Positions 22,466-33,360 of a stretch of DNA of 64,000 nucleotides are shown here, in pieces (positions within the stretch are counted from its first letter, which is position 1; the number at the start of each line of letters is the position of its first letter). The notes below the pieces were generated by a model. The model did not search any database and was not told where the DNA came from. It saw only the letters and a program-made list of their open reading frames with translations. Source of the stretch: an uncultured Pseudomonadota bacterium. Its GTDB lineage: Bacteria > Pseudomonadota > Gammaproteobacteria > Burkholderiales > Thiobacillaceae. The DNA lies in the NCBI GenBank assembly GCA_903835655.1, contig CAILNT010000059.1, positions 57,009-121,008 of the forward strand, in the 5' to 3' direction. The position numbers were made by a program, and so were the translations under genes.

Positions 22466-23011
22466 ATGGTGCCCGCCATTACGAAATATCGACTCCACGC
22501 CATCGCCCTGCTCGCCGGCATCCTGTCCGCGCTCGCCTGCCCGGCCTCTGCGCAAGCCTCGCCTGGCCTGCGTCTGTTGATAGCCCGGCCCCAGGTTCCC
22601 TGGCAGTTGCAAGACTGCCAGCCCCGTGGAAACCGACCGGAACTGTCGTGGCGGAAGGTGGACGGCCCCCTGCAGATTTCCTGGAGCGGCGGCCAGGCCC
22701 TGCTTGACCCCGGGACTGGCAAAGACGCCCTCCCTGACATGCCTGCGCACTTGGCGGATGGATGCTTTCGGCTCGAACTCGATGGCCAGCTTCTGGTGGA
22801 GGGCGCCCTGGTGTCCCGCTATTCGGCCCGCATGCTGAAATTCCCGGTTCTGCTCCTGGGAAACCGGCCCGGCACACCCGTCCAGGAGTTGTTCCTGGAA
22901 CCGGGTTTGCCTGCTCGTCCCCATAACACCACGGCCTGGGAGGCTGCCCTGAGGCAGCGCTTCCCCAGTCCCAATCCTGACACTCTTGCCACACTGCCAA
23001 CGAAACCATGA
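22466..23011 (+). CDS. Secreted protein of unknown function
   Basis: A 181-residue protein with a signal peptide (AIALLAGILSALACPASAQA, cleavage near residue 30). The mature part has no motif I recognise. Its stop overlaps the ATG of the VIT/DUF2135 gene (ATGA), so the two are coupled and probably act together in the periplasm or at the envelope. Confidence 0.7.
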   Translation: MVPAITKYRLHAIALLAGILSALACPASAQASPGLRLLIARPQVPWQLQDCQPRGNRPELSWRKVDGPLQISWSGGQALLDPGTGKDALPDMPAHLADGCFRLELDGQLLVEGALVSRYSARMLKFPVLLLGNRPGTPVQELFLEPGLPARPHNTTAWEAALRQRFPSPNPDTLATLPTKP

Positions 23012-26000
23012 AGACCTTAACACAACGCCTTGCCGCCCTGGCCCTGGGAGCCGTGCTGGCTCTTGGTGCCACCACAGTTGTCGCCCAGACCACCGGCCAG
23101 GAAGCCATGGGGCCCGAACCTTCGCCTCGCCCCGTCCTGCCTGCGTTCCGGTTGCTGCTGTCGGTGCCGGAGGCGCGCCAGCCGGTGAGCCTGGAGCGGG
23201 TGACGGTGTCCGCAGACATCGTCGGTACGTTGGCCAGAAGCCGTATCGAACTGGTGTTGCACAACCCCAATGAGCGGGCGCTGGAGGCCGAATTGCAGTT
23301 TCCCCTGCTGGAAGGCCAGACCATCACGGCCTTTGCCCTGGACATCCATGGCCACCTCCGGCCCGCCTCGCCGGTGGACAAGGCTCGCGGCCAACAGGTG
23401 TTCGAAGACATCGTGCGCCGGGGCGCCGATCCGGCCCTGCTGGAAAAAACCCAAGGTAACAATTTCAAGTTGCGCGTTTATCCTCTGCCACCCAAAGGCG
23501 AGCGCCGCGTCGCCCTGGTCATCAGCGAAACCCTGACGCCGGGCAAGGATGGTCGACTTAGCTATCGCCTGCCCCTGGGTTTCGGCGACCAGGTGGGCGA
23601 GTTGAGCCTGGATTTGCATGTGGCGGGCGTCGTACCGGGCAAACTGGCCTTGAGTCCGGTTCTGGAAGGTGCCGTCAGGGAAGTGCAGGACGGGGACGCA
23701 GTGGTTCGCTGGCTGAAGAAAGGCTGGAATCCCAAGTTGGCGGGCAGCATAGCGCAACTGAGTTGGCAGGCGGCGAAGACGGAGATGTTGGTCGCCGACC
23801 GCTTTGAAGAGGACAGCTTCTTCTATGGTGATGTGCCGGTGAATGTTCCGGCGGCCCCACGCGTCGCCCCGCGCACCCTGGCCTTGATCTGGGATGCATC
23901 GGGCTCCGGCAACCGTCGCGATCATGCTCGTGAATTCGCGCTGCTCGATCTCTGGTTCAAGCAACTCGGCAACGTTGACGTCAGCCTGGTGGTGGCGCGA
24001 GATCAGGCCGAAGTGCCGCGGAATTTCAGCGTGAAGAGCGGCAATTGGCAGGCCTTGCGGACGGCACTTGAGGCCGTGCCCTACGATGGCGCCACCAATC
24101 CTGCTTCGTGGGCCGTTCCCGATGTGGTGGGCGAGGTGAACAGCCTGGCCTTGCTGTTTTCCGACGGTCTCGCGAACTGGGGCGAGGCCGGAGCACCGGC
24201 TTCCCGTATTCCGCTCTATGCCGTGAATGCCGCCGCCAGCGCCGATCCGGTTCGCCTGCGCGCGCTCGCCGAAGCCAGCGGCGGAGCTTACCTGGATCTG
24301 CTGCGAATTTCCCCGGTGGAGGCCGCCACCGAACTCGGTCTGCGCCGAACCCGTTTGGTGGCGCTTTCGGGTGCTGGCGCCGAAGCTCTCGTCAGCGCAT
24401 CCGCCTACCCGGAAGGGGGGCATCTGATGCTGGCGGGGAAGTTGACTCAGCCCGTCGCACGAGTCACCCTGATCCTGGAGTCACCCACAGGGGAACGCCT
24501 GGAGCGTCACCTGGCGGTGAAGGCGGCCGCATTGCGTCCGTATGCGGCAAGCGCTGACGTCTTCCCGGGTGTAGCTGCCCAGCATTGGGCCGGCCTGACT
24601 TTGGGGCGACTCGAGGCCGATCGCAATCTCCACCGCGCTGAAATCCGCCGCCTGGGCCAACGCTTCGGCCTGGTTACGGAGGAGACCTCCCTCATCATCC
24701 TGGAGAGCCTGGCCGATTATCTGCGCTACGAAATCCTGCCCCCGGCCGGGGATCTGCGTGTGGAGTACGAACAACAACTTGCCCAGCGCCAGGCCGGACA
24801 GGTCAAGTCCCGCAGCGCGCAACTGGATTCCATCGCACCCCGCTTCGCCGAGAAGGTGAAATGGTGGGAAACGAAGTTTCCCAAGGGGGAACCGCCCAAG
24901 CCAACAGAGGATCCGGATCGCGCCAGCAGGCCCATGGCGGTGATGGCACCGGCACCGAACATGGACCCTGCCGCGATGAGCGCGGCTCAGGCGCGGTATC
25001 TTGCGGAACAAACGGCCCGGATGAGCGAGCGTCGGGTGCCGGCGGAGCAGCCGCCGCCGGTAGGTGCGGTCCAAAGGGCGGAACGAGTAGTCCAGGTGCC
25101 GTCGGGACAGAGCGCCCAGAGCATGCAGGAGATCGGATCGGACGCGATGCGTGCGCCTGTCCCCGATGCCGGTCCCGAGGCCGCCATCCACTTGCAACAA
25201 TGGCAGCCGGACGCAGCCTATGCCCGGCGCCTGCGGGACGCCAGCGACACCGAGCGCTATGCCATCTACCTGGACGAGCGTGGCAGCCACGAGGACAGCA
25301 CGGCCTTCTTCCTGGACGCTGCGAACATTTTCTTCGATCATGGACAGACCGATCTGGCCGTACGCATTCTCTCCAACCTGGCGGAAATGAACCTGGAGAA
25401 TCGCCACATCCTGCGCATCCTGGCCTACAGCTTGCGCCAGGCCGGGCAGGTCAGGCTGGCCCTGCCGCTGCTCAAGCGGGTGCGGGAATTGGCGCCGGAC
25501 GAACCCCAGTCCTCACGCGACCTGGGGTTGGCCTATGCCGCGAACGGCCAGAGCCAGGCGGCCATCGACGTCCTGTGGGAAGCCGTCTGCCTACCTTGGC
25601 GGGCGGATTTTGCCGACATAGACCTCATCGCCCTGGCAGAACTCAATGCCATTGCCGCCCGCACTCCCGGGCTGGATCTGTCCAGGATAGACCCGCGCCT
25701 CATGCGCAACCTGACGCTGGATCTGCGCGCCGTGCTGGCCTGGGACGCGGACAATACCGACATCGACCTATGGGTGACGGACCCCAATGGCGAGAAAGCC
25801 TACTATGCCCATCCGCTGACCTACCAAGGCGGGCGCATGTCACGCGACTTCACGGCTGGATACGGTCCGGAGGAGTTCTCCCTCAGGACGGCTAAACCGG
25901 GGCGCTACGAAGTGCGCGCCCACTTCTATGGCCACCGCCAGCAGATCGTCTCGCCCTACACCACCCTCATGCTGCGCCTGTCCACTGGCTTCGGCACCCC

Positions 26001-26097
26001 GGCACAAAAGGATCAGGAAGTCATCCTACGCCTGTCGGAAAAAAACGAGGGAGTCCTGGTTGGCAGTATCGAAGTCGCCGGAAAAGGAGGGAAGTAG
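23008..26097 (+). CDS. Large secreted VIT-domain protein with C-terminal DUF2135
   Basis: A 1029-residue exported protein (signal peptide MKTLTQRLAALALGAVLALGATTVVAQ). Residues about 35-170 are a VIT domain (NPNERALEAELQFPLLEGQT; KARGQQVFEDIVRRGADPALL). A VWA-like region begins near 290 with DASGSG, an imperfect MIDAS, so metal-dependent binding is uncertain. About 735-880 is helical and TPR-like (DLAVRILSNLAEMN; LAYSLRQAGQVRLALPLL). About 905-1025 is DUF2135 (DIDLWVTDPNGEKAYY), as in YfaP-type proteins. VIT/VWA proteins are often envelope-associated. A short linker rich in Met/Pro/Gln separates the halves. Confidence 0.85.
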   Translation: MKTLTQRLAALALGAVLALGATTVVAQTTGQEAMGPEPSPRPVLPAFRLLLSVPEARQPVSLERVTVSADIVGTLARSRIELVLHNPNERALEAELQFPLLEGQTITAFALDIHGHLRPASPVDKARGQQVFEDIVRRGADPALLEKTQGNNFKLRVYPLPPKGERRVALVISETLTPGKDGRLSYRLPLGFGDQVGELSLDLHVAGVVPGKLALSPVLEGAVREVQDGDAVVRWLKKGWNPKLAGSIAQLSWQAAKTEMLVADRFEEDSFFYGDVPVNVPAAPRVAPRTLALIWDASGSGNRRDHAREFALLDLWFKQLGNVDVSLVVARDQAEVPRNFSVKSGNWQALRTALEAVPYDGATNPASWAVPDVVGEVNSLALLFSDGLANWGEAGAPASRIPLYAVNAAASADPVRLRALAEASGGAYLDLLRISPVEAATELGLRRTRLVALSGAGAEALVSASAYPEGGHLMLAGKLTQPVARVTLILESPTGERLERHLAVKAAALRPYAASADVFPGVAAQHWAGLTLGRLEADRNLHRAEIRRLGQRFGLVTEETSLIILESLADYLRYEILPPAGDLRVEYEQQLAQRQAGQVKSRSAQLDSIAPRFAEKVKWWETKFPKGEPPKPTEDPDRASRPMAVMAPAPNMDPAAMSAAQARYLAEQTARMSERRVPAEQPPPVGAVQRAERVVQVPSGQSAQSMQEIGSDAMRAPVPDAGPEAAIHLQQWQPDAAYARRLRDASDTERYAIYLDERGSHEDSTAFFLDAANIFFDHGQTDLAVRILSNLAEMNLENRHILRILAYSLRQAGQVRLALPLLKRVRELAPDEPQSSRDLGLAYAANGQSQAAIDVLWEAVCLPWRADFADIDLIALAELNAIAARTPGLDLSRIDPRLMRNLTLDLRAVLAWDADNTDIDLWVTDPNGEKAYYAHPLTYQGGRMSRDFTAGYGPEEFSLRTAKPGRYEVRAHFYGHRQQIVSPYTTLMLRLSTGFGTPAQKDQEVILRLSEKNEGVLVGSIEVAGKGGK

Positions 26098-27111: not shown

Positions 27112-27361
27112 TTCGACGAAGCGCAGCCGCAAGCTTGCCGTCCCCTGGCCGAGTATGTGGCCGCCGCTTCTGTCAGGCCAGTTGGTTTGCGGCTGCCTAC
27201 GAAAAGCAAAGTGAATCGGGCTCCATCCATCGGGGCGCGCGGAATAGTCGGTTGACCACGGCCTTCATGAGCGTGAGAATTGCTCGGAAATCACAAGAAG
27301 GGGCCGTTGGATTTCCCATCCTTTTTCCTTCAAGTTTGATGCGCAGCGGCGGGTTGTCCTG

Positions 27362-27889
27362 GTGGCAGGAGTGTTGGCTGCGGCCAGTTTCGGGCTGGAT
27401 TCCGCCGTCGTCGATTTCGGTTGGCGCGCGGACAGCGGCGAACCCTGGAGGTTGTTGACCTCCCAGTTCGTTCATCTGGGTCATGTCCATTTGGCGGCCA
27501 ATCTATTTGCGGCCGCGCTGATCGTCTGGAGCTGCAATCAGTTCCAATTGTCCACGCGTCTGCCGGCCGCGACGCTGGCTACTCTCGCCGGTGTGGGCTT
27601 GGGGTTGCAGTTCGGGCCCTGGGCCATCACCTGGTATGTCGGGATGTCCGGTCTGTTGCATGGCCTGTTTGCCTGGTTATGTCTGCACCTGGCTGTCCGC
27701 GCGTCATTCGCTCGCCCGGTTCGCAAGTTTGCCGGCGTGCTTTATCTGGGGGGATGGTTCAAGGTGCTGATCACGTTGACCACGCCGCTGGGGGCCACGG
27801 GTTGGTTGGGCATACCCCAGGTGACCCCGGTGCATCTCTACGGTTATCTCGCCGGCACGCTCTGGGCCTTGCTGCGTCGAACGAAATAG
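27362..27889 (+). CDS. rrtA: Rhombosortase (rhomboid-family sorting protease)
   Basis: Polytopic intramembrane serine protease of at least 175 residues, of the rhomboid superfamily. GMSGLLHG carries the nucleophile serine (Ser96 from the GTG at 27362), and a histidine in TPVHLYGYLAGTLWALL (about 158) is the likely partner. The block WRLLTSQFVHLGHVHLAANL is typical of rhombosortases, which cleave and sort proteins carrying a GlyGly-CTERM tail. The 3' end overlaps by 46 bases the opposite-strand subtilase gene, whose product has such a tail. The start is uncertain: the frame is open further upstream and the GTG start removes part of helix 1, so a non-standard upstream start is possible. Confidence 0.85.
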   Translation: MAGVLAAASFGLDSAVVDFGWRADSGEPWRLLTSQFVHLGHVHLAANLFAAALIVWSCNQFQLSTRLPAATLATLAGVGLGLQFGPWAITWYVGMSGLLHGLFAWLCLHLAVRASFARPVRKFAGVLYLGGWFKVLITLTTPLGATGWLGIPQVTPVHLYGYLAGTLWALLRRTK

Positions 27890-29721
27890 GCCAGTGTGAC
27901 CAATCCGGCCAGTCCGGGCAAGGCGTCTGAATCCATGGCCCCGCCACCACCGCCACCACTGCTCGCCGCGGGCGGCGTAGGCGTGGAGGTGGCTGGGCTC
28001 ACCGTCAGGGTCGATTGGGTCGTATTGCTCGCGCCCAGGTTGTCGGTCACCGTCAGCGACACGGTATAGATTCCTGCCGTCACGGCCTGTATCGCCGTGG
28101 TGGCAGTATTGTAGGAAGTCAGGCTGGCACCCGTCGGTGCGGAGAGGAGTTGCCATTGCCAGGTGCTGATGGATCGCCCGGGAGCCGCCTGGCTGGAGGC
28201 CGCCGTCAGGCCTACGGTCGTGCCCGCTGTCAGGGGGGAGGTCGTCTGGATCGCCGCGGTCGGCGGCCAGGCCGCGGCCACCGCCGCCACCGCGTTGAGC
28301 ATGCCCGCGCCGCAGGTGGCCGTGGTGCAGTTGCATTGGCCGGAGGTGCTACCCGAATTGGCATAATTTGGGCAGGTGGGCAGGGTAGGGTCTACGGGAA
28401 ATACCCTGGCGGAATGCTGGATGCGGCTGATGAGGTCGGCGGGTTGCAGAGCCGGGTTAAGTGAAAGCATGAGTGCGGCCACGCCCGCGACCTGGGGCGA
28501 GGAAAAACTGGTGCCGATGTTGTAGTTGGTCTCATCCGTGTAGCCGTTTGTGGCCGGTACGGTCGTGCCCAAATTGGTCGTGGTACCCATGCTGTAGAGA
28601 CAGGGGCCGCTGCTGTTGACGCAATTCCCCGCCGGAGCGCTCACCGAGACTTCCGCGCCAAAACTGCTGTAACCGACCTTGCCGCCGATATTGCGTAGAC
28701 CCGCGACCGTCAGCACGCCGGCACAGTTTCCCGGGACGCCGACCGGTCCCACCGTGTTGCCTGCTGCCGCCACAACCAGCACCCCCTTCGCCGTCAGTTG
28801 GCTGATGGCATCCGCATAGGCGGCCGTACAACTGCCACTGCCACCCAGGCTCAGGTTGATGATTTTCGCCGGATTGGGGTTGCTTGCCGCACCCTTCTGC
28901 GGCGTCCCGGAAATGCCCGCGGCCCAGAGCATGCCGGCGATGATGTCGGAGTCGAAGCCGCCGCACTTGCCCAGCACGCGCACCGGCAGAAGTTTTACCC
29001 CCCAGGCCGTGCCGGCGATGCCGACTCCGTTGTTCCCCGCTGCACCCAGGATGCCCATGACCCGGGTGCCGTGCCAACTGCTGTTTTGTTGACTCAGACC
29101 GCCGCTACACTCCTGCGTCAGCTTGGAGTCCCGGAGATCAGCCGCGGAGACGTAGTCTCCTGGGTCACTCCCCGCAGGATCGGTCGCGCTGGGATGGTCG
29201 TCGGCGCCGCCGTTGGCCGTGTCGAGGATGAAGTCGGCACCGGGCAACAGAGTGTTCGCCAGATCCGGGTGGTCAAAGCGCACGCCGGTATCGATGTCGG
29301 CCACCACCACCGTCGCCGAACCCGTGGTCTGATTCCATGCGTCCACGGCATCGATTGCCGACGGTGTCGCGGCCGTCGCCGCCTGGAGATACCACTGACT
29401 GGAGAGTAGCGGGTCATTGGGCAAGGTGTAGATGAAACGCCGCTGGTCCGGAACCGCGTATTCCACCTCGGATTGGCGGCTCAGGCGTGCCGCCAGGGCT
29501 TCCGAAGTGAGTCCACCGGCATGAAGCACATGCATGCGGGCGTCCAGATGCCGGCCGGAATGCAAGACCAGCCCCAGTCGAGTAGAAAACCGGGCCGAGT
29601 AATCTAGCGGTGGCGTGGCCGCTGTACCCCGATATTTGACGATGACACGCCCATCCTCGGCCAGGCTGGTCGCAGCATGCAAGGCACAAGCCAGCAGGAT
29701 CAATGCAACTATTTGCTTCAA
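27844..29721 (-). CDS. Secreted S8 (subtilisin) protease with GlyGly-CTERM-like tail
   Basis: Subtilase of 625 residues. Signal peptide MKQIVALILLACALHAATSLA; I9-like propeptide (about 23-98, RVIVKYRG); catalytic domain with Asp144 (DIDTG), His217 (WHGT), oxyanion Asn322 and Ser405 (GTSFSSP). A PKD/Ig-like domain covers about 490-585 (TVSLTVTDNLGAS). The tail is SSGGGGGGAMDSDALP, a hydrophobic helix and a basic end, matching the GlyGly-CTERM plan recognised by rhombosortase, which is encoded convergently next door. The start is TTG at 29721 overlapping the TGA of an I9-like ORF (TTGA), so coupled translation is likely. All catalytic residues are present, so it should be active. Confidence 0.92.
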   Translation of the reverse strand: MKQIVALILLACALHAATSLAEDGRVIVKYRGTAATPPLDYSARFSTRLGLVLHSGRHLDARMHVLHAGGLTSEALAARLSRQSEVEYAVPDQRRFIYTLPNDPLLSSQWYLQAATAATPSAIDAVDAWNQTTGSATVVVADIDTGVRFDHPDLANTLLPGADFILDTANGGADDHPSATDPAGSDPGDYVSAADLRDSKLTQECSGGLSQQNSSWHGTRVMGILGAAGNNGVGIAGTAWGVKLLPVRVLGKCGGFDSDIIAGMLWAAGISGTPQKGAASNPNPAKIINLSLGGSGSCTAAYADAISQLTAKGVLVVAAAGNTVGPVGVPGNCAGVLTVAGLRNIGGKVGYSSFGAEVSVSAPAGNCVNSSGPCLYSMGTTTNLGTTVPATNGYTDETNYNIGTSFSSPQVAGVAALMLSLNPALQPADLISRIQHSARVFPVDPTLPTCPNYANSGSTSGQCNCTTATCGAGMLNAVAAVAAAWPPTAAIQTTSPLTAGTTVGLTAASSQAAPGRSISTWQWQLLSAPTGASLTSYNTATTAIQAVTAGIYTVSLTVTDNLGASNTTQSTLTVSPATSTPTPPAASSGGGGGGAMDSDALPGLAGLVTLAYFVRRSKAQSVPAR

Positions 29722-30111: not shown

Positions 30112-32477
30112 TCAAGAAGCACACTTCAACCCGTTGATACAGAGAGAAATAATCGCGGCTCTACAGGGGCTCGCCAGTGCTGCTTCAACACGCCTAGCCC
30201 TCCTGGGGTAGGTTACATGTCCAGTCCCGCCTGTATATAACGCGCGCTTAACGAATAATTCGGGTTTTTCCGCCTGCCATTTTTTCAGAGCCTGGATGGG
30301 TGCCTGGCGGTTCTCGCCGTCATTCAGGGTAGCGATGAAGGGGGAGTTGGTCGAATCGACGGGTTTGCCGCTTTCATCGGCACCGACCAGTACGCTCCAG
30401 CAATGACTGCCAAACACCTCCGCCGCATCCATATCCAGGAGGTGTAACGCCACTTCGTTCGCATAGACGACCAGGCCGCTTCGATCGACGCTGATGAGCC
30501 CATCTCCGGCCGCGTCCAGAATACGAACATTGCGGCGATGCACATCCTCGATGGCCAACTGGTAGGTGTGCCGCTGTGTGACGTCACGGGCATTCATTAC
30601 CAGCTCTTCCGCCCCACTCGAACCGCGGGTTCGTTTGATCGCCGCCTCGATCCAGAGGTCGCTGTCGTTCAGGCTGCGGGCGCGGGCCAGTATCGTGATG
30701 GTGGCGCCAGTTTCGGTGAGGTTTTCCAGGCCCCGCCGCAAGATCACCCGGTCGTCGTCATGGAGGTAGTCCTCGACAGGCCGACCTATCATCTCCTCCG
30801 GCCGTGTTCCGAACAATTCGATGCTGGCGGGCGAGACGAAAAGGAAACGCCCGGTCAGATCGATACTCACGATCATATCGGTGGAGTTTTCCGCGAGCAG
30901 ACGAAAACCATCTTCTTTCGAGCGGAGGGCTCGCTGGGCGAGGACCTCGATCAGGGCGAGGGAGAGGGAATTCGCGGCATCCAGTTCCACCAGCGACCAA
31001 GGCATGGACTTGTCGCGATAGGTCTCGCTCCAGGTGGCGAAGGACTTGCGCGGCGAGATGCGCAATTCGCCGTTTTCCTGCGTTACCAGTTTGTTCGGTT
31101 CACCCGCCCAGCGCAGAGTGCGGACTATGCCGGGGCGGAACCACATGACGAAATCGCGCGCCTCGTGGTCCAGAGGAGCGACCAACATCCCCGAGGTCCT
31201 GTCCTGCAACCCGGAGAACTCGGGACCCAGGTCAGCCAGGTGTTCAGTATGAAAGACCGGCGCGGGTTGCATCACGCGCAACATCGAGATCAGATGCTCT
31301 GTCGCCACCTCGTCCGGCACCACGCCGATGTGATGATGCGCCCCCCCCAGGGAGACGATGGCGCAGTCGGCCCGGACGATGCCGAGTAGATCTTCGCTGT
31401 ATAGCTTGATCACCACGCCCAGGTCCTGAGCGCCCCTGATCTTTTCTGTCAGGGAGAACAGCAGTTCGCGGATACGGGCATTGATGGCTGCCCGTTCCTG
31501 GGCATCCATGTGGATCAGTTTCAGCGAAACGACGCGGCCGATGAACTCGTCAAGCTCCCGCTCCCTCAGGGGAACGAACTTGGGCGTCATATGGTGGCAG
31601 GCGATCAGCCCCTAGAGCCGGTCGTTCTGCACCAGGGAAATGCTGAGACTGGCCTTGACCCCCATGTTGCGCAGGTAATTCACATGCACCGGCGACATGC
31701 TGCGCAACCAGGAGTAACTGAGGTCCACCGCCGCACGCTCTCCACCGGAGAGCACGAGTGGCACAGGGACGGCTTCGACATCGGCGATCATCCGGACCAA
31801 ATTTTTCGTGTACAGCAAACGCGCCTGGGCAGGAATATCCGAAGCGGGGAAGCGATTTCCCAAATAGGAATCCAGGGACTCCTCCCGACTCTCGGCGATG
31901 ACCTCCCCATCCCAGTTGCTGTCGAAGCGGTACATCATCACCCGATCGAAGCCGGTCAGCAGGCGTACCTGATCCACCACGGCATGCGCATAGCAGGCGA
32001 GATCCTGCTCCGCAACAGGCGCCAAAGCGCATCGCGGATGGGAATGAAGAGTTCGTGGAAGACGTCGCCTCCCGCCGCGGGCTGACGGTCTATTTCCACC
32101 ACGACATGGTCTTCGGTGCGGTAGACCTGGGCATCCATATGCTCCGTCCCGCCAACGCGATCCAGGGCCAGCGAACCGATGGAAGCGCCAGGCATCTGTT
32201 GCCGTGCCACCATCTCGCGTAGCTTGCCCGCCGATTCCACGCCAAGCAGCGCGTCGATGGACAGGCCAAGGGCTGCATCGGGCGGCATGGCGAGCAACGC
32301 GGCGCAATTCGCGCTAATCCCACGCAAGCGCCAGTCAACGGCGTCAAAAGCCAGCAGGATTCCGCCGTCCTGGATGCTGCCGATACGATGAATGGGTTCT
32401 CGGGCACACTGGAGCAGCGCCCCTTCCAGACTCGCGGGGTGGTCCCTGTGTTCAGGATTGCCGATGCAGGCAGTCAT
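30112..32477 (-). pseudogene. bphP: Decayed bacteriophytochrome (PAS-GAF-PHY-PAS-PAS)
   Basis: Red-light photoreceptor gene split over three frames. 32477 onward encodes the PAS_2 part with the biliverdin cysteine context LLQCAREPIHRIGSIQDGG. A frameshift near 32005-32020 leads into the GAF domain (FDRVMMYRF, FPASDIPAQARLLYTKN, SPVHVNYLRNMGVKAS). A TAG at 31612-31614 replaces the Trp codon expected in NDRL-W-GLIACHH. The rest (30112-31590) is a PHY domain with the PRKSF tongue motif and two PAS domains. It then ends in unrelated residues with no kinase, GGDEF or EAL output. The gene overlaps bphO by 26 bases. Three lesions make loss of function very likely. Confidence 0.88.
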
Positions 32478-33087
32478 CGAGCAACCCTTCCAGGGTATTG
32501 AAGACGTTCAGGGCTGCCTCCCCCGCGCGCAGGCGTTGCACCGGGTCGTCGGCGAGTCCCTCGGCATAGGCGCAGAAGGAAGCCCAGCGAGTTTCCGTGT
32601 CGGCGCCATAGGCAGCGAAAAATCGCGCTCCCCGTTCCGGCGTAAGGCCAAGATTCGCCCTCAAATGCCGGCTAATGACCTGCCCACCGAGTGTGGACCC
32701 CTCGATGGCGTATAGCGTGCCGACCAGTTCCGCAACGTCACCGGGCACCTCGATGACACGCCCGATTTCCGGGGGCGCAAGCGCATCGCCCAGATTGGTG
32801 ATGTCCAGGGCCAGCCAGGGCAGCTTGCGCCGGTCCGCGTAGGAAAATACGCTAGCGCTGGCCGCCAGAACGTCGAGGATGGCAGGCTCCACGACGCTGA
32901 AAAAACGGTGATAGGTGCCCAGGATCAAACGATATTGCGAGAGGGGAAAATTCGCTCGGGTGAGCCCGGCCAGGAGGGGATGCAGGTTCAGCCGGACGTG
33001 CGCGGCGTGCGTGGCCTGGCGAAGCTGCTGGCGCACTGTGTTCAGACCCTCCGGCGTGCCTTCGTTGCTTGGTGCATTGCTTGTCAT
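32452..33087 (-). CDS. bphO: Biliverdin-producing heme oxygenase
   Basis: Heme oxygenase of 211 residues; it opens heme to biliverdin, the chromophore of bacteriophytochromes. The start ATG at 33087 gives MTSNAPSNEGTP; the ORF track start further upstream is unlikely. Family features are the proximal-histidine region QATHAAHVRLNLHPLL, the helix LVGTLYAIEGSTLGGQVISRHL and the C-terminal helix ALNVFNTLEGLLDDCL. It overlaps the phytochrome gene and the frame is intact, although its partner is broken. It could still serve in iron release from heme. Confidence 0.93.
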   Translation of the reverse strand: MTSNAPSNEGTPEGLNTVRQQLRQATHAAHVRLNLHPLLAGLTRANFPLSQYRLILGTYHRFFSVVEPAILDVLAASASVFSYADRRKLPWLALDITNLGDALAPPEIGRVIEVPGDVAELVGTLYAIEGSTLGGQVISRHLRANLGLTPERGARFFAAYGADTETRWASFCAYAEGLADDPVQRLRAGEAALNVFNTLEGLLDDCLHRQS

Positions 33088-33360
33088 GACATCGGGGTCC
33101 GGTGAGCACACCGCGAACTGTCGCAGCCATCCGGACCATTGTGCGCCGCGTGGTGGACCGAGTCCATTGCAGATCGTGAGCCACCGGCAAGCCCGCGACA
33201 AACCGAGTCAGATACACCGCGTCTATTCGTTCATAAGAACTTTCGATTAGTCTGATGTCGCGGTGACCCGAGCTTTGCGAGTACCATTCGCGCCTCTTTG
33301 GCGGCGCGTCTGTAGCCCCGCCATGCCGATTTTCAAAGTCTTCACCCTCGGAGGCGATAC
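33088..33360. other. Divergent intergenic region between bphO and qmoA
   Basis: 273 bases without an ORF that I can support. It should hold the promoters of both divergent units. A good ribosome site (ggagg, 33349-33353) precedes qmoA. I could not pick a convincing -35/-10 pair. Confidence 0.6.

Follow-up and report, generated by a model that had tools for sequence, protein, structure and literature searches.

The rhombosortase and subtilase genes lie tail to tail in the window (the whole 64,000-nucleotide stretch of DNA analysed here). The rhombosortase gene (27362..27889, + strand) encodes 175 amino acids from a GTG at 27362, in a frame that is open from 27248. The subtilase (S8) gene (27844..29721, − strand) encodes 625 amino acids from a TTG start. 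The rhombosortase stop codon ends at 27889 and the subtilase stop is located at 27846-27844, giving an overlap of exactly 46 bp (27844..27889, both strands). The sequence-only reading had described convergent genes with a 46-bp overlap and each stop codon inside the other gene; its coordinates and strands are exact. The overlap encodes YLAGTLWALLRRTK-stop in the rhombosortase and YFVRRSKAQSVPAR-stop in the subtilase, with wobble position facing wobble position, and the TAA of the subtilase sits opposite the Gly-Tyr codons of the rhombosortase motif HLYGYLAG. The ORF pair is not a product of chance, since both proteins match known families and the same convergent overlapping layout is found in seven other genomes.

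The rhomboid ORF scores 87 bits against TIGR03902, only just over the cut-off of 84; its match to Rhomboid PF01694 in the profile search is 34.4 bits. The motifs WRLLT (residue 29), GMSGLLHG (residue 94) and HLYGYLAG (residue 158) are all present, as the sequence-only reading had claimed for WRLLT, GMSGLLHG and an H-L block. The SGxLH signature of rhombosortases is found as SGLLH (residues 96–100). The catalytic S96 (codon 27647..27649, + strand) is invariant in the alignment of relatives, as is the catalytic H158 of TM6 (codon 27833..27835, + strand), which together with the likewise invariant G161 and G165 forms the TM6 His and GxxxG pattern. H100 is the rhombosortase-specific residue, its role being that described in PMC3237569. 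In most other rhomboids, Tyr or Phe occupies the position of the rhombosortase active-site His (Y205 in GlpG). The AlphaFold model (with ten relatives) has a pLDDT of 88.1, and its best Foldseek matches in the PDB are all E. coli GlpG (TM about 0.6–0.68). The profile score above cut-off, SGLLH, HLYGYLAG and the GlpG-like predicted fold identify the rhomboid-like protein as a rhombosortase. The only other TIGR03902 match in the same genome is a 415-residue rhomboid with 51.7 bits, below the cut-off.

The N-terminus of the rhombosortase is uncertain. In the alignment, the relatives have approximately 20 extra residues before TM1. The upstream frame of the window gene is open, but the sole ATG, GTG or TTG start in it is the GTG at 27362. 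A possible true start (27296..27313, + strand) consists of AGAAGGGG (27296-27303) and, after 7 nt, an in-frame ATT (27311-27313). Judged by the sequence, a start at this ATT could add about 17 residues, including KFDAQRR, before TM1, similar to the relatives. Use of ATT as a rare start codon could account for the lack of a standard start, and so could an error in the sequence.

The subtilase consists of a signal peptide, a propeptide region, an S8 domain (residues 137–444), a PKD domain (500–574; 41.1 bits) and a Gly-rich tail. The S8 domain matches PF00082 with 150.5 bits and contains the triad D144/H217/S405; the closest solved structure is 7w2a (E 5.5e-67). The probable Sec signal peptide, MKQIVALILLACALHAATSLA (29656..29721, − strand), has a hydrophobic core. 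The C-terminal tail, SSGGGGGGAMDSDALPGLAGLVTLAYFVRRSKAQSVPAR, is located at residues 589–625 (27847..27957, − strand) and is composed of a run of six Gly residues, a hydrophobic stretch and RR. The predicted helix, ALPGLAGLVTLAYFV (residues 600–614; 27880..27924, − strand), is the Kyte-Doolittle maximum over 15 residues (1.83). Nine residues follow the RR because the overlap runs on to the Tyr codon of HLYGY. The Gly run, helix and basic residues reported by the sequence-only reading are thus in place, and a Gly-rich motif lacking Cys, a C-terminal helix with basic residues and a signal peptide together give the architecture of GlyGly-CTERM proteins.

The curated GlyGly-CTERM model, TIGR03501, gave no match at E 10, either in the whole genome or with the tail alone. 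Neither the MprA tail model (TIGR03867) nor JDVT-CTERM (NF033191) matched the window tail. A leave-out profile was built from the C-terminal tails of rhombosortase-linked proteins of other genomes, excluding the window tail and its nearest relative (G041). The window tail scores 30.0 bits against this profile, and the background of unrelated-ORF tails does not exceed 8.0. Even after removal of every close relative from the profile, the window tail scores 15.4 bits (background up to 7.2); the next hit after it is the rhombosortase-linked tail of G531 with 8.4 bits. Failure of the tail in the GlyGly-CTERM model had been proposed at the outset as grounds for rejecting the pair, and to the letter this is the result obtained. 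We do not regard it as a refutation because the leave-out profile finds the tail, the tail from a homologous pair itself scores 15.3 against the TIGR03501 cut-off of 15.5, and its own authors, Haft and Varghese, state that TIGR03501 cannot be exhaustive and use adjacency as a further guide (PMC3237569).

Profile searches were also used to count tailed proteins in the genome. They revealed no further C-terminal tripartite Gly-rich tail; the remaining matches were considered as extra targets and rejected as they are not tails of this type. The subtilase is therefore the only detectable tailed partner, and within the reach of the search the pair is one-to-one. The genome encodes a type II secretin, GspD, over cut-off (610.7 bits). 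A VIT/TPR/DUF2135 protein is encoded near the pair (23008-26097, + strand) and ends in VEVAGKGGK without a sorting tail; VIT proteins are known targets of sorting enzymes elsewhere. On the other side, 30112-32477 (− strand) contains pieces of a bacteriophytochrome (PAS-like, GAF, PHY plus PAS), each in a different frame from the one before, which points to a frameshift in the gene or to errors in the sequence; these pieces adjoin a heme oxygenase gene (32452-33201).

Rhombosortase neighbourhoods were surveyed in genomes of the order and the class. A search of contigs with a single protein query returned nothing; the relatives named here were found with an alignment. Convergent overlap with a tailed S8 protease occurs in the window (46 bp), G041 (Gallionellaceae STA_24; 46 bp), Cognatazoarcus halotolerans (HKLI-1; 61 bp), G121 (25 bp), G531 (19 bp), G610 (22 bp), G073 (67 bp) and G092 (67 bp). 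Four pairs are convergent without overlap (G760, 3-bp gap; G146, 9 bp; G830, 53 bp; G794, 255 bp), and by a heuristic tail test the target lies upstream on the same strand in G522, G592, G498, G290, G232 and G312. Among the class-level loci labelled many-target types in the tree, no convincing convergent tailed neighbour was seen. The rhombosortase tree unites the window, G041, G121, G531 and G610 in one clade (support 98/95) and places G073 and G092 apart from it, on branches that are long or weak. The subtilases from those five, from Cognatazoarcus and from G005, G009, G027 and G076 form one group (100/99). The window, G041 and G121/G531 have different flanking genes; the two genes of the pair thus behave as a single unit.

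The subtilase group includes natural variants. The G027 and G076 subtilases are 65% identical to that of the window over the catalytic part but have a different C-terminus and no tail, and TIGR03902 gave no match at E 1e-5 in either genome. As these subtilases nest inside the tailed clade, the lack of the tail appears to go with the lack of the enzyme. Their C-terminus (loci L088 and L089) resembles a small secreted protein that is encoded directly downstream in L088. In G005 and G009 the tail is kept with no adjacent partner, and a TIGR03902 protein is located on another contig. The first protein search had suggested that rhombosortases are missing from the rest of the genus; we reject this, as the TIGR03902 model finds proteins in G004, G005, G009 and G016, all of a different type. 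In G005 and G009 this type has no His after SG and adjoins a tailed lipoprotein; that of G005 matches the rhombotarget lipoprotein model TIGR04179 with 279.9 bits. TIGR03902 proteins with no His after SG adjoin proteins with GlyGly-like tails in the same genus (L091, L093 and L094) and likewise in L047, L048, L051, L053, L054, L057, L059 and L062; the L094 neighbour belongs to the rhombotarget lipoproteins (TIGR04179), and those inspected among the others resemble it. Related subtilases in L077 (G115) and L080 (G105) carry a Cys-containing Gly-rich tail instead. The G115 tail matches JDVT-CTERM (37.3 bits), so one protease family uses different sorting tails.

All eight overlap lengths (19–67 bp) equal 1 mod 3, hence the wobble positions of the codons face each other. 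With its notation mapped to ours, Table 3 of PMC2174442 gives this as the least common phase of convergent overlaps of at least 5 nt (18%). Antisense stops in the other two phases of the overlapping rhombosortase genes mostly come only after at least 100 bp; in the seven genes examined, no phase but the one used, or hardly any other, offers an antisense stop within 67 bp. The early stop in this phase lies opposite the TM6 Tyr codon. The shared phase was considered as evidence of selection and rejected, since the availability of antisense stops nearly always leaves only that phase; as it follows from the available stops, it is not in itself evidence of function. An intrinsic terminator within the overlap was rejected as well: none stands above chance, and the number found is below chance expectation.

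Most likely, the overlap arose by extension of the subtilase frame into the rhombosortase gene as far as the first antisense stop, which faces a TM6 Tyr codon; in this lineage it has been kept together with the pair. We consider it probable that the overlap has no function of its own and is a neutral result of gene compaction and drift of the stop codons in one inherited pair. Most cases belong to one lineage, stop availability accounts for the phase, and convergent overlaps are not rare among prokaryotes (PMC2174442); against this, G073 and G092 lie outside the main clade, though they are weakly placed in the tree. It is unlikely that the overlap is selected for mRNA pairing at the 3' ends, by which the enzyme gene and that of its sole substrate would each control the other's transcript, as happens with arfA and mscL in E. 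coli (PMC10070815). Overlaps of 19–67 bp recur in eight genomes, of which two lie outside the main rhombosortase clade, and this would agree with selection, as would the terminator result, by which the transcripts probably run into each other. However, the length is not conserved, the four convergent pairs described above have no overlap, other pairs are tandem, and stop availability alone explains the phase. The arfA-mscL genes are also tail to tail with overlapping 3' ends, but they have two unrelated functions; antisense regulation is shown for them and is only possible in the window. It is doubtful that a conserved antisense 3' overlap couples expression of the sorting enzyme and its sole substrate, with the basic end of the signal, and in some genomes also part of its helix, encoded opposite the last helix of the enzyme.

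Whatever the history of the overlap, we interpret the two genes as a dedicated one-enzyme, one-substrate surface-sorting pair, with a probability of about 0.85. The analysis shows that both proteins belong to their families, that the tail has the expected architecture, that the two genes are adjacent and recur as a pair, that no second recognisable tail is found, and that a secretin gene is present. The private enzyme–substrate pair that the sequence-only reading had put forward is supported by a model-confirmed rhombosortase, a sole detectable tailed neighbour and joint inheritance in other genomes. On the other side, the tail falls outside the curated GlyGly-CTERM model, the enzyme passes its cut-off narrowly, and the tailed subtilases of G005 and G009, from the same genus, have no rhombosortase alongside. 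That the Gly-rich tail is a mere linker and membrane anchor, with the rhombosortase acting on another protein, is very improbable: the negative TIGR03501 result would fit, but the leave-out profile matches the tail, adjacency with tailed subtilases is conserved and profile searches of the genome revealed no further tailed protein.

The subtilase would be exported by Sec, with its C-terminal helix holding it in the inner membrane. The rhombosortase would then cut at the Gly run, removing the helix, and the cut subtilase would probably be transferred onto a phosphoethanolamine lipid before type II export delivers it to the surface. Cleavage, lipid attachment and surface localisation are here predicted by homology, the model being VesB, whose route comprises Sec, membrane parking, a rhombosortase cut, a probable phosphoethanolamine lipid and type II export (PMC6219818). 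In Vibrio cholerae, VesB is a secreted serine protease with a Gly-run/helix/basic tail like that of the window protein, and is processed by the rhombosortase RssP before type II export, as we propose for the subtilase. VesB is trypsin-like, however, and RssP serves several substrates.

The window pair belongs with the dedicated rhombosortase/GlyGly-CTERM pairs described in 2011 by Haft and Varghese (PMC3237569), in which a single tailed protein is encoded beside the rhombosortase and S8 proteases are among the targets; it differs in that its tail is too divergent for TIGR03501. The GlyGly-CTERM form of MprA (TIGR03867) is likewise an S8 protease with a GlyGly tail beside a rhombosortase, and in G760 it is convergent (3-bp gap, tail 43.8 bits), but the window tail fails TIGR03867. 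An enzyme beside a single target is already known; the addition here is the 3' overlap that recurs in related bacteria. The main text of PMC3237569 does not mention strand, operon or tail-to-tail layout, and in the parts of it consulted 'overlap' and 'convergent' refer to peptides and evolution. We found no description of the recurring overlapping convergent layout in the literature searched.

If the overlap does couple expression, the pair would exemplify antisense wiring of an enzyme to its substrate. As the window tail shows, likely targets escape the curated GlyGly-CTERM model; genomes scored as having a rhombosortase without a target may therefore have one next door. The one-to-one pair offers a simple system for substrate recognition by rhombosortases and for the question of lipid attachment.
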